Below are positions 32,846-37,927 of a DNA stretch of 64,000 nucleotides, one piece after another. The first letter of the stretch is position 1. Each line of letters starts with the position of its first letter. This stretch comes from a bacterium (GTDB lineage: Bacteria; Arandabacterota; Arandabacteria; Arandabacterales; Arandabacteraceae), in assembly GCA_029933125.1 (NCBI GenBank), contig JAOZOU010000001.1, positions 124,001-188,000 on the forward strand, written 5' to 3'. The position numbers were made by a program, and so were the translations under genes. The notes beneath the pieces are model-generated. The model searched no databases. It worked only from the letters and a program-made list of their open reading frames with translations, and had not been told where the DNA came from.

Positions 32846-34882
32846 CTACTCGAGGTAAACTAGCGAAATCGTCCTCGTGCCACTCGTAGCCGAAAGCCTG
32901 AGGAAGTAGACCCCGGGTGCAAATCTGGCTCCATCGATATTCGTCATATCCCAGCTGAGACCATACCTGCCGGCCGCAACGACCTCATCAAGCAGCGTTT
33001 TCACCAGGCGACCCTGAGTGTCAAAAACCTGAATGCGCACCCTTTGTGCACTCGGAATTGAGTAGGAAATGTGTGTTGTGCCGAGGACGGGATTCGTTCC
33101 CTCAACTCCAAGAGCAAGCCCGAGCTCAGACGGCTCACCGTGGATCCCGGCATAGGGCACTTCCTGCGCTTCGTTGAGAATCCAATTGTCAGGATCGAGT
33201 TCAATCCCGACAGGCTCATCAGCATATGTGAAAAGGTATTCCTCATGGGCTTCGTCGACCCAGACAACATCAATCAGGCTGTCCCCGCTCGCCAGTCTAA
33301 CTTTCACATCGACGGGCATCGTGAAGATCGGGCCGTTGGCCTGAACCTGATCTATCACAAGATTCAGAGCAAAGGAATCTCCGAGGCTTTGTGCGTGCCA
33401 GGAATACTCATAGACAGGCCAGCCAACATCGTAGATCCATTCATTGAAGAACCAATCAAGGCTCTGTCCATAGACGCTCTCAACATCCTGCTGGAATTCG
33501 GCAGTAACAGCGTTTCCATATTCATGGTTGGCTCGATATGTCGCGAGCGCCTGGTAGAAGACTGAGTCACCCAGAACATGGCGAAGCATATGCAGTACAC
33601 ATGCACCTTTCTCATAGACAGTTGTACCCCAGAGATAGACAGGATCATAGATGGGGAAGTTTTCACCACTACTAAAGACTCGATTCATCTGCCCTTGCAC
33701 ATAATCATGATAGGCGTCCATGCCGTAAGCATGCTCCTGATATAGCGCCTCGCAATATGTCGCAAAGCCTTCACTGAGCCATATGTCACGCCAGTCATTT
33801 ACTGAGACGAGATCACCCCACCACTGGTGTCCCATCTCGTGGGCAAGCAGCCAGTCATAGTTATGGTTGGGCTGAACAACATAGTTAACGTGAGTCACAC
33901 AGGTTTGATGTTCCATGTCACCCTTTGTCGCCATCGCATAGGCAAACTTGGAGAAGGGATATGGACCGAATCGCTCAATGAAGCCATCCATCATGATGTG
34001 AACATTCTGGAAGTGAATCTTGGCATCCTCCTCATCAGGCGGAAAAACCCAGTAGTGGATCCAATCGTAGGTTGAGTCTATGAGTTCCTTGTAACGGCGG
34101 GCATGGACTGTCATAAGATGCGGTGCGATTTGATGAGTTTCAACCCAGTGATAAGTTGCCGTGCTCGCAACAGTGTCGATCTCAGTTCCTGTAAGGACAC
34201 CGTTGCAGACTACCTTCTTGCCAGTACCTGGGACAGTTATGTGATATTCGGCAGTGGCCTTATCACAGGGCCAGTCCCAGCAGGGAATCCAGAACTTACC
34301 CATAGATGGTGGATCAGCTTCCAAGCCAACGCCCATCTGAAATGCCATCTTGGGTGCGCCTGCAAAGTAAAACCCGCCGAAGCCATCAGGTCCTTCGTTG
34401 CCAGGATGACCATGATAGAAGACCTGCACGCTGAAGGTATCTCCTGATGAGTATGCCTGAGGTAGATCAATCGAAAGCACTGAGTCAATGTGAGCAAAAG
34501 TGAGTGGATTGCCGGTTTCACTCAGCACCGAGTCAACTGTTAGCACAGCAAGGTCGAGATCGATGGATACGAGTGAATCGATCTCACTCATTGCCATAAC
34601 GATTGTGTTGCCAGAGATAATCTCGTTGTCAATGTCAACAAAGAGGGTCACATTGTAGTGAAGTACATCAAAAGAGTGAGGACAGTTGTCCGTGAAGGAT
34701 TCTGCGACGAGAGGTCGATACTTAAGAGCCTCGGTTGCTCTGAACCACTCCCTCGAGCCAACCTCAAACTGTCCTGGATCGGGGAATTGACGAAGAAGCT
34801 TCGTTGCATCCGTTGAAGCCTCTACGAGGCTCGATGCGACCAGTATGCTTAGAGCGGCAAGTAGCAAGACCTTTGATTTCAT
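32846..34882 (-). CDS. Secreted M1-family aminopeptidase with C-terminal tail
   Basis: 678 residues. A signal peptide (about 1-22) precedes the M1 metallopeptidase core: the substrate motif KGDMEHQT (replacing GAMEN; this is the usual variant in this subgroup), and the zinc site HEMGHQWWGD (His about 348 and 352) with the third ligand Glu in WLSEGFATYCE 18 residues on. A long helical part follows, with a conserved MLRHVLGD and Tyr-rich segments, then a FlgD-like tail (VFDTQGRLV, SWDMTNIDG, FAPGVYFLRL). It should remove N-terminal residues from peptides outside the cytoplasm, and would complement the C25 proteases at 48-52.7 kb in protein breakdown. The ATG follows GGAGGTGA. Confidence 0.88.
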   Translation of the reverse strand: MKSKVLLLAALSILVASSLVEASTDATKLLRQFPDPGQFEVGSREWFRATEALKYRPLVAESFTDNCPHSFDVLHYNVTLFVDIDNEIISGNTIVMAMSEIDSLVSIDLDLAVLTVDSVLSETGNPLTFAHIDSVLSIDLPQAYSSGDTFSVQVFYHGHPGNEGPDGFGGFYFAGAPKMAFQMGVGLEADPPSMGKFWIPCWDWPCDKATAEYHITVPGTGKKVVCNGVLTGTEIDTVASTATYHWVETHQIAPHLMTVHARRYKELIDSTYDWIHYWVFPPDEEDAKIHFQNVHIMMDGFIERFGPYPFSKFAYAMATKGDMEHQTCVTHVNYVVQPNHNYDWLLAHEMGHQWWGDLVSVNDWRDIWLSEGFATYCEALYQEHAYGMDAYHDYVQGQMNRVFSSGENFPIYDPVYLWGTTVYEKGACVLHMLRHVLGDSVFYQALATYRANHEYGNAVTAEFQQDVESVYGQSLDWFFNEWIYDVGWPVYEYSWHAQSLGDSFALNLVIDQVQANGPIFTMPVDVKVRLASGDSLIDVVWVDEAHEEYLFTYADEPVGIELDPDNWILNEAQEVPYAGIHGEPSELGLALGVEGTNPVLGTTHISYSIPSAQRVRIQVFDTQGRLVKTLLDEVVAAGRYGLSWDMTNIDGARFAPGVYFLRLSATSGTRTISLVYLE

Positions 34883-35021: not shown

Positions 35022-36638
35022 TTATCTCAGAAGGACAACCTTCTTCGAGAGAGCAAAGGCGCCAAATTGGAGCCGCACGAAGTAGACACCCGAAGGGACC
35101 ATCCTCCCCTCGCTGTCAGTTCCCTCCCACACAACTTCATATCTGGCAGCTCTCACCGAGGCATACTCCATGATTCGTCTTCCTGTGATATCATAGATGC
35201 CAATCGTAAAGCGAGCAGGCTCTGGCAGGCGGCAGATGAGGCGCACCTTTCCAACGGATGGATTAGGCAAAACCTCAAGCAGACCACCAACCCATGGAGG
35301 TGGGGTATATGAGGGCGAGCCCAGTACCTGATCGATCTGCCGCGGATCAACTCGCCCGACCTCATCGGGGCGATCGGTTTCGAAGCTTCCCCTGCTCATG
35401 AAATGGAGATTCAAGAAACTTACTGACAGTGAGTCGCCAGCAACCGGGTCGATGATCTCTGTATATCCCATGTTGATATCTTCTCCACACACCAGGCAGG
35501 TGTAAATTCCCCTCATCGGATGGTCGATTCGGAAGACGGAATCGGGACGCTCCTCCCGGGGAAGCGCATCGATTATTTCAAACATGGCTCTCGCCAGAGC
35601 TGGTCCATCGGGAACACCATCGTCATCGGTGTCTGGATCGTCAGGATCGAGCAAGAAGCATTCTTCTTCAATATCCCTTAGCCCGTCACCATCAGTATCA
35701 TCTTCAACATCCCGCCAGTGAGAAGTATCGGTGCCATTGAGCACTGTGTAGAGTACAGTCGGCAGGATGCGTCCGGTATTCTCGCTCCCGCTATAGGCTG
35801 CCGATCCGTGGGCTAGATAGTGAAGCGAAATGTAGGGAGCTCTGAGCGTGATACCCTCAAGAGGATTTACGATTTCGACAAAGCCCATGTTGTAGGTATT
35901 GCCACAGATGTCACATGTCTCGACTCCATCCATCGGAATTTCGAGCATGTAGGGTTCGGTATCACTGACCTCTCTCGAAATTGACTTGAGTGAATCGAGG
36001 AGATCCTCGAAAAATTGGGGTCCATCTTTAATTGAATCTCCATCGGTGTCAGGTAAGCCATCAACAGTTCTGACGAAATCTTCCTCAAGCGACTCGAGCC
36101 CGTCCTCGTCGGAATCCTCAAAGCTCTGGTGACTTTCGTCTGAGCAAAGCAGAATGCGCTTGAGTGCAGAGAGATCTACCCTCCCCTCATGTAACGTACC
36201 AAGATAGGAAAGACTTCCATGGCTTAGGTAGTGATAGGCAATGAAGGGTATCTCAGTGGAGAGTCCACGCGCTGGGAAGATCAGACGAATGAAGCCCATG
36301 TTGACTTCGGCACCACAGATCTCGCAGAACTCGACTCCGTACTGGTACTCAAGCACCTTGTAGGGATCTTGCTCCTGGGGTGTTTCAGGAAGGCTATCAA
36401 TCAGGCTCTTAAGCTCGTAGGCAAGTGCAATACCATCAAGCAGCGTATCAGGAGCAGTTGAGGGATTATGCCAATCCACACCACGCAGGACCTCTTCAGC
36501 AAAAGATATGTAGTCACCGTCCTCGTCGTCTTCCACGGGGAGGAGATGGGGATCGGATGCCCCAATCGCAGGTTGCACGAGGAGGAGAGCTGAAAGGCAA
36601 AGAGCCACAGGAACAGCCTTGCGTTGGAGCTCGACCAT
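35022..36638 (-). CDS. Secreted protein with three CxxC-NMG-HGS repeats, Ca-binding linkers and C-terminal tail
   Basis: 538 residues from the ATG at 36638 (weak AGGA site; an in-frame TTG at 36692 is an alternative). After a signal peptide there are three copies of a domain of about 55-60 residues: a CxxCG pair (FCEICGAEVNMGF, TCDICGNTYNMGF, TCLVCGEDINMGY), then I-x-x-P-x-x-G, and H-[YF]-[LM]-[SA]-[HR]-GS (HYLSHGS, HYLAHGS, HFMSRGS), then a V-D/L-x-x-L helix. Cys and His are placed to bind a metal. Between the copies are thrombospondin-3/EF-type Asp-rich calcium repeats (DSDEDGLESLEED, DTDGDSIKDG, DTDGDGLRDIEEE, DTDDDGVPDG). A FlgD-like tail ends the protein (YDITGRRIM, WEGTDSEG, VPSGVYFVRL, KVVLLR). 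I do not recognise the repeated domain; function unknown. Confidence 0.8.
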   Translation of the reverse strand: MVELQRKAVPVALCLSALLLVQPAIGASDPHLLPVEDDEDGDYISFAEEVLRGVDWHNPSTAPDTLLDGIALAYELKSLIDSLPETPQEQDPYKVLEYQYGVEFCEICGAEVNMGFIRLIFPARGLSTEIPFIAYHYLSHGSLSYLGTLHEGRVDLSALKRILLCSDESHQSFEDSDEDGLESLEEDFVRTVDGLPDTDGDSIKDGPQFFEDLLDSLKSISREVSDTEPYMLEIPMDGVETCDICGNTYNMGFVEIVNPLEGITLRAPYISLHYLAHGSAAYSGSENTGRILPTVLYTVLNGTDTSHWRDVEDDTDGDGLRDIEEECFLLDPDDPDTDDDGVPDGPALARAMFEIIDALPREERPDSVFRIDHPMRGIYTCLVCGEDINMGYTEIIDPVAGDSLSVSFLNLHFMSRGSFETDRPDEVGRVDPRQIDQVLGSPSYTPPPWVGGLLEVLPNPSVGKVRLICRLPEPARFTIGIYDITGRRIMEYASVRAARYEVVWEGTDSEGRMVPSGVYFVRLQFGAFALSKKVVLLR

Positions 36639-37170
36639 CCAGGGTATCCTGGCGATTTCGCTTAGGTTCCCTTGCGCTCCATGACGGTTCAACTCCGCCG
36701 AAGAGCCTCAGACATTCGCTATGAACAAGCCTGTACTCGGGTAGCAAAGAAGGGGTGATCTTGCATCCTGGACATGCCCAGTGAAAAAGGATGCGCTGAT
36801 CCTCATGGCTGAGATCATTCTTTGAATATGGATGCCTTATGTATTCCTCGACGCAGCATGATGGATAGCCAAAGAGGAATCCTTGGAAGCGAACCAACTT
36901 TTTCGAGGAGATGAGCCTCCTCCCCGCCATGCGAGAGGCGTAGAGATTTGTGGCGTGTGGATTCATTGAAAAGACTGATTCCCGAATTCTCCTTCCCAGG
37001 AGCGTCTTGCGCTCGACACCAACAACATGGAGGCCCAGGTCTTCAAGAATTGAGATCTCCCTTCGGCTTAGCCGGTGCTCCCAGCGGCTCAGCCGCTTAA
37101 GCCCGTGTCTTGTAAGAAGCGCAAGATAGGCAAGTTCAAAAGGCAGGTAAGATAACGCCCTTGGATTCAT
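36514..37170 (-). CDS. Cys-rich protein with GYPSCC motif (DUF483-like?), overlapping the next gene
   Basis: 218 residues, no signal peptide, rich in Arg. A conserved-looking core, FLFGYPSCCVEEYIRHP (about residues 97-113) followed by HWACPGCK and EYRLVHSECLRLFG, offers a CC pair, a CxxC and further Cys/His, suggestive of a metal or Fe-S site; GYP-x-CC is a motif I associate with DUF483, but the match is tentative. The last 40 residues are Ser/Pro/Arg-rich and overlap the signal-peptide region of the next gene by 125 bp, which is unusual; the original stop may have been lost by a frameshift near 36640. It has its own promoter (37191-37219) and is in an operon with the CxxC-repeat protein. Confidence 0.55.
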   Translation of the reverse strand: MNPRALSYLPFELAYLALLTRHGLKRLSRWEHRLSRREISILEDLGLHVVGVERKTLLGRRIRESVFSMNPHATNLYASRMAGRRLISSKKLVRFQGFLFGYPSCCVEEYIRHPYSKNDLSHEDQRILFHWACPGCKITPSLLPEYRLVHSECLRLFGGVEPSWSAREPKRNRQDTLDGRAPTQGCSCGSLPFSSPPRATCDWGIRSPSPPRGRRRGR

Positions 37171-37534: not shown

Positions 37535-37927
37535 TTAACGAACCTTTATCACCTTCTGCGCCCGGCTATCACCACCTGCCTCTATTACAACAAAATATAT
37601 CCCAGGTACTACTCGCGAGCCCTCTCCCGTCTTACCATCCCAAAGAACCCTACCTACCCCTCCACCTCCAACCCCACTCGCCAACTCCCTCAACAGCCGT
37701 CCCTTTACATCATAAACGCTAACCCTATACCCTACACCCATTGGCACCTCATAATTTATTCTTACCCTATTACGGAAGGGATTGGGACTGATCCCCCCAA
37801 TGGTAACCCCACCCCAAGTACCTGCCCCAACCCCGCTCCTGCTGAGCGGATCCACACCAAGGATCCGCCTTATACCTAAACTGTGCGGCCCTCCTGCCGC
37901 TATTGCTACAAAACCACTTGACAACAA
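37535..37927 (-). pseudogene. C-terminal remnant of an RCC1-like secreted protein
   Basis: The frame holds the end of one RCC1-type propeller repeat (FVAIAAGGPHSLGIR), a glycine-rich linker and a complete FlgD-like tail (ISPNPFRNRVRI, VYDVKGRLL, WDGKTGEGSRVVPGIYFVVI, KVIKVR). Normal RCC1 propellers have seven repeats and a signal peptide; both are missing upstream, where the phase soon loses protein character. It is the remnant of a larger secreted protein. Confidence 0.6.

Follow-up and report, generated by a model that had tools for sequence, protein, structure and literature searches.

A CxxCG-NMG-HGS repeat domain of predicted exported bacterial proteins and the cysteine-rich domain with which it is paired

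The redox-enzyme maturation proteins TorD and NapD are small cytoplasmic proteins, each dedicated to a single exported preprotein on which it acts and with which it is encoded. C2H2-type zinc fingers and zinc-knuckle domains (e.g. zf-C2HC_2) carry a CxxCG knuckle and an H-x3-H at a helix, and the classical C2H2 pattern is C-x2-4-C-x12-H-x2-6-H. Asp-rich calcium loops occur in TSP3-type surface proteins such as CglD and MtsD. When Prevotella and Bacteroides are starved of iron, DUF2023 (PF09633) genes are induced about 160-600-fold together with flavodoxin (PMC10434189), and the cysteine methyltransferase NleE methylates a zinc-coordinating cysteine (PMC4239114). The locus described here is compared with these systems.

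The window, i.e. the whole stretch of DNA that was analyzed (64,000 nucleotides, from a MAG), contains a minus-strand ORF at 35022-36692 that holds three copies of a domain with the motifs CxxCG, NMG and HGS. Its likely start is the ATG at 36638. The features are as follows.

36688-37170, minus: partner domain of about 160 amino acids, Cys-rich (SRWE, FGYPSCCVE, FHWACPGC), the conserved part of the ORF at 36514-37170
36639-36690, minus: linker in which the two frames of the window are offset; one continuous frame in the relatives G002 and G005
35022-36638, minus: predicted exported repeat protein, with the ATG at 36638 and a longer open frame from the TTG at 36692
36558-36617, minus: hydrophobic signal or transmembrane stretch AVPVALCLSALLLVQPAIGA, then directly S-DPHLLPV, from the sequence; those relatives that are complete at this end have an equivalent stretch
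36369-36557, minus: unit 1, H-x-LP, Asp-rich (EF-hand/TSP3-like) loop pair and helix
36144-36368, minus: CxxCG-NMG-HGS domain, copy 1 (HYLSHGS)
35958-36143, minus: unit 2, Asp-rich loop pair and helix
35736-35957, minus: CxxCG-NMG-HGS domain, copy 2 (HYLAHGS)
35535-35735, minus: unit 3, Asp-rich loop pair and helix
35319-35534, minus: CxxCG-NMG-HGS domain, copy 3 (HFMSRGS, Arg in place of the second His)
35034-35270, minus: C-terminal T9SS type A sorting/FlgD-Ig-like tail (TIGR04183)

The three copies, of about 75 amino acids each, had been described in an earlier note on this DNA, and they carry CxxCG, NMG[FY], a P-x-x-G turn and H-x3-[H/H/R]-GS as it stated, with Asp-rich repeats between them and Arg at the second His position of copy 3. 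In a search of the home genome with copy 1 as query, copies 2 and 3 were recovered at E=3.4e-15 and 2.0e-8; the sole further match had E=0.55, and no further copy of the repeat was found in that genome outside the 35022-36692 protein. Judged by these scores, the three copies are related far beyond chance. The extent first assigned to the repeat was too small, however: the whole repeating unit measures about 140 amino acids and comprises H-x-LP, the Asp-rich loop pair, the helix and the CxxCG domain, and the upstream ORF is also part of the feature. Two features were absent from the earlier description, namely an NMG Met as invariant as the Cys residues and the pairing with a second Cys-rich domain.

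The protein had also been called secreted, with a C-terminal tail, and both descriptions agree with our analysis. By inspection and script, a signal-like stretch ending in AIGA-S lies ahead of the first unit. The tail clears the NCBIfam T9SS sorting-domain model TIGR04183 (25.1 bits, cut-off 23) and is below the cut-off of Pfam PF18962 (20 vs 27). A homologue of SprA, the T9SS translocon, is encoded in the home genome (TIGR04189 above cut-off, 517.7 bits in one frame). With a sorting tail over a curated cut-off and SprA in the genome, the repeat protein is predicted to be a T9SS client. Directly downstream of the repeat gene is an M1-family peptidase with a T9SS/FlgD-Ig tail (32846-34882, minus strand), which is not conserved beside the relatives examined. 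In addition, a short ORF at 37535-37927 (minus strand), perhaps a remnant, combines an RCC1-like end (AIAAGGPHSLGI) with a tail of the T9SS type.

The partner and repeat ORFs are out of frame only in the window. The linker at about 36640-36690 is poorly conserved and relatives read through it; in G002 and G005 one frame runs from the partner into the signal stretch. Compared with G002, which is of the same genus, pN was 0.13 for the repeats and 0.16 for the upstream domain, with pS of 0.75-0.77 and synonymous sites saturated. These values indicate that the repeat gene and the upstream domain are both under strong purifying selection, and because both parts are so constrained, the offset is read as either a frameshift of recent origin, after which translation may restart at the ATG at 36638, or an assembly error. 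Frame breaks are not unique to the window, as a repeat gene on a planctomycete contig (L045:3421-5060) is also broken across two frames.

The earlier note regarded the domain as unrecognised, and profile searches gave no match of the repeat to a named domain: no family was matched in Pfam, NCBIfam, PHROGs or PADLOC, and sequence searches of the PDB returned only Ca-loop and ribosomal-protein noise, so that neither a curated family nor a solved relative was found. The best zinc-finger matches were sub-threshold (E 0.005-0.009, e.g. 16.2 bits vs a cut-off of 27), with no score above the curated cut-off of a Pfam zinc-finger family. In the literature library searched, no paper turned up on the repeat family or the partner family. 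An AlphaFold2 model of one unit (35688-36152, the unit with copy 2) had a pLDDT of 88.3, with 93-97 in the core. In this model the CxxC lies on a knuckle between strands and the H-x3-H at a helix end, a layout shared by many zinc sites. No convincing match to the model was found in the PDB by Foldseek (best E 0.87), VIA-align on the Foldseek-ranked chains gave a best Z of 3.2, and the best match in a viral structure library (Edafosvirus, E 0.067) was not significant. The missing fold match is no proof of a new fold.

Repeats were identified in four of eight genomes of the window's own phylum. Profile searches located relatives in three genomes outside that phylum, and a profile search of genome contigs added 13 (Latescibacterota, Verrucomicrobiota and Planctomycetota). 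One additional genome came from the phylum Latescibacterota, and one planctomycete class had repeats in 17 of 397 genomes, 14 of them new to the set, for a total of 35 genomes. The family occurs in Eisenbacteria, Latescibacterota, Verrucomicrobiota, Planctomycetota and three further groups. In other phyla sampled it is sparse, with 2/64 and 1/194 genomes as counted by the partner domain. The collection scan was run with a four-copy alignment; a nine-copy alignment was too varied. A match in G208 (E 0.0016) was dropped, as its frame looks like noise. Viral, phage and plasmid sequences were searched and no repeat was found, the single plasmid match being to the sorting tail only.

Each protein contains from one (G598) to five (G1033) units, so the domain also occurs singly, which was a check proposed earlier. 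The single-repeat protein of G598 (L091:2602-3681) and its secreted neighbour (L091:3763-4422) have similar ends, DPVTWGEVKKTLRRR and EPSSWGKVKAGFR, and from this likeness the ends are possibly a C-terminal sorting tag. In the planctomycete protein of L042, no Pfam dockerin match was found at E up to 1, and its tail is only Ca-loop-like. Some genomes have two repeat genes, in tandem in L048:355-2726 and distant from each other in G967 (L133/L134), and in both cases a single partner gene was identified, next to one of the two repeat genes.

Conservation was assessed over 84 full units from 36 loci, all with the spacing C-x2-C-x27(or more)-H-x3-H. Five positions were invariant (84/84), namely both Cys residues, the Met of NMG, the first His and the Gly that follows the second-His position. 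The second His was kept in 79 units; the other five have R, K, Y, N and N. The earlier note had suggested a metal site of two Cys and up to two His and had pointed to copy 3 as a natural test of the ligands. Extended to the 84 units, that test separates the fixed positions, both Cys and the first His, from a second His that is common but dispensable, so that a Cys2His-type pattern is what is conserved. The position of the copy-3 Arg is Lys in the same-genus ortholog and His in G005, and thus the change arose recently and is tolerated. Units at the same position in different genera resemble each other more than do the copies inside one protein; therefore, the array is old and not a fresh duplication.

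A check of gene neighbours, likewise proposed at the outset, revealed the partner domain. Its family motif is SRWE...FGYPxCC...FHWxCxxC, and it is fused or adjacent to the repeats in all 34 testable genomes (G004, in which the contig ends inside the third repeat, is outside this count). Either the partner is fused to the N-terminal side of the repeats, ahead of a signal sequence that is then internal, or its gene directly follows the repeat gene. The fused form is found in Eisenbacteria, Latescibacterota, Verrucomicrobiota and the three further groups, and the separate downstream gene in planctomycetes. Of the 34 paired genomes, 24 have separate genes, which share a strand and are spaced by -4 to 48 nt; the separate partner has no transmembrane segment. 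When 386 genomes were searched with both profiles, the partner was found only where repeats occur, and it is single copy in each genome checked. Outside these 386 genomes there was one exception, G577, in which a partner gene lies at a syntenic locus but Ca-loops are all that was matched of the repeat protein; thus, the partner may occur by itself. In G967, one of the two repeat genes lacks a partner of its own, an arrangement that is compatible with action in trans and means that adjacency is not strict. Other conserved neighbours of the repeat loci were only those that close synteny explains. In a midpoint-rooted partner tree the fused forms (support 0.98, the window inside) and the split forms (0.81) make two clades, a topology that would fit one fusion or fission. 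The near-constancy of this pairing, whether the two domains are fused or split, argues strongly that they are functionally coupled across the membrane.

The split-form repeat proteins start with a conserved basic segment like MRRLRRAxQR...RRRAVAAGTAA. As computed by a simple script, this leader has a median of 23 amino acids and a net charge of +10, vs about +2 in the fused forms; 94 signal-like proteins from 400 kb of one planctomycete genome have leaders with a median of 12 amino acids and +2, to a maximum of +7. Tat export was considered and rejected, as the leaders have no consistent twin-Arg motif. We infer that the leader stands in for the covalent link to the partner; as evidence for a partner docking site it is a correlation.

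The structure model of the partner was confident (92.8). Its best fold match was 2guk (2guk_A; Z 9.8, 108/111 residues, rmsd 3.5), which was found to be DUF2023 through a bait query, a DUF2023-like sequence that served as bait alone and was confirmed by Pfam. The second was NleE (4r29; Z 5.7, 108 residues, rmsd 4.1), with a Z in the chance range according to the tool's note. Sequence comparison of the partner with 2guk by hhalign gave no support (prob 0.4, E 0.15), and none of 19 partner members matched PF09633 at E up to 1. These model-based likenesses would serve as leads and not as tests.

The reading that we favour, at a little short of an even chance, is a two-part cell-surface system in which an exported metal-site repeat protein is served by a dedicated cytoplasmic partner that acts on its preprotein. 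The first part would be a Sec-exported protein of one to five units, each a calcium-loop pair, its Asp-rich loops stiffened by calcium, followed by a small extracytoplasmic metal-site domain. A single metal ion, most probably zinc, would be held by the C-x2-C and the His on the helix (usually H-x3-H). The protein would be displayed outside by its T9SS tail or, in planctomycetes, by a short tail of the Ca-loop kind. The second part would be the cytoplasmic Cys-rich domain, acting on the preprotein before or during export. Where fused, it would act in cis ahead of the signal sequence and be freed by signal peptidase; where separate, it would act in trans, with the conserved basic leader as the likely docking site.

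The invariant Met could reflect another metal or just packing. A site for copper or another soft metal, with Cys2, Met and His as ligands, in surface proteins that scavenge or store metal, would account for a Met that is conserved as strictly as the Cys and more strictly than the second His, and the iron-starvation induction of DUF2023 (PMC10434189), the family of the partner's best fold match, points the same way. However, that link is by fold only, the Met may be a core residue, and the loci have no conserved metal-uptake genes as neighbours, and we consider this reading unlikely. Outside the cytoplasm a CxxC often oxidises, so the motif could instead form a redox or structural disulfide, with a structural His and no metal site. 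The constancy of the first His and near-constancy of the H-x3-H argue against this, as does the succession of CxxCG and H-x3-H on a helix, which is typical of zinc sites; moreover, the weak sub-threshold matches include zinc-finger models and no thioredoxin-like match was obtained. We therefore hold a disulfide to be distinctly unlikely.

Other alternatives concern the partner. The domain order and N-in topology of the fused forms would suit an uncleaved membrane sensor with a cytoplasmic partner, one transmembrane helix and metal-sensing repeats outside. Such a sensor is improbable, given the separate genes in most paired genomes, a partner free of transmembrane segments, the small, cleavage-site-like residues after the hydrophobic stretch, and the T9SS tail of several fused forms, which needs release from the inner membrane. 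The likeness to NleE would make the partner a cysteine-modifying enzyme, e.g. a SAM-dependent methyltransferase, acting on the repeat Cys residues, but its Z lies within the range of chance arrangements and no activity is known for 2guk, which matches better; this is very improbable. Under the two-part reading, an N-terminal domain fused to a T9SS client would be unexpected if it stayed attached. It is conceivable, if rather doubtful, that the preprotein carries its own dedicated export or maturation factor as a cytoplasmic domain N-terminal to the signal sequence, left behind on cleavage, and that in planctomycetes this same factor, made as a separate protein, recognises the conserved basic leader of the repeat protein.

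These results describe two linked families of proteins, neither of them covered by curated annotation in the libraries that were searched, both spread thinly over at least four phyla, mostly of uncultured bacteria, and through the pairing their function can be approached by experiment. Action of the partner on the preprotein, if it occurs, would amount to a cargo-specific step of export or maturation that is so far undescribed. The newness lies at the family level, and the mechanism is proposed.

The likeness to TorD and NapD is one of analogy, with no homology claimed: those proteins bind Tat signals, whereas the leaders here are not consistently twin-Arg. The repeat shares the CxxCG knuckle and helix-borne H-x3-H of zinc fingers, but it has 27 or more residues from C to H, extra strands, an invariant Met, a predicted extracytoplasmic location and no fold match found in the PDB. 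To TSP3-type proteins such as CglD and MtsD it is related by its loops alone, which match parts of NF033765 and NF047639 with scores far below the cut-offs. DUF483 (PF04467) shares a 20-residue G-x-L-x-G-Y-P-x-C-C core with the partner, and a comparison of the two profiles aligns only 20 columns. DUF483 scores weakly in 14 of 19 partner members (best E 5e-4); the two bit scores available, 14.4 for the window and 20.5 for G005, are below its cut-off of 25 bits. At the position of the partner's HWxCxxC, PCSxxC is found in those DUF483 proteins that were compared. In G032 (L093:1183-3227), a HemN-like radical SAM protein has two tandem proteins of the DUF483 type (YPxCC...PCSxxC) as neighbours. 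NleE is larger than the partner, with a weak fold likeness and no sequence match. The best fold likeness of the partner is to DUF2023, by fold alone, and DUF2023 genes, unlike those of the partner, adjoin flavodoxin and not a repeat protein.
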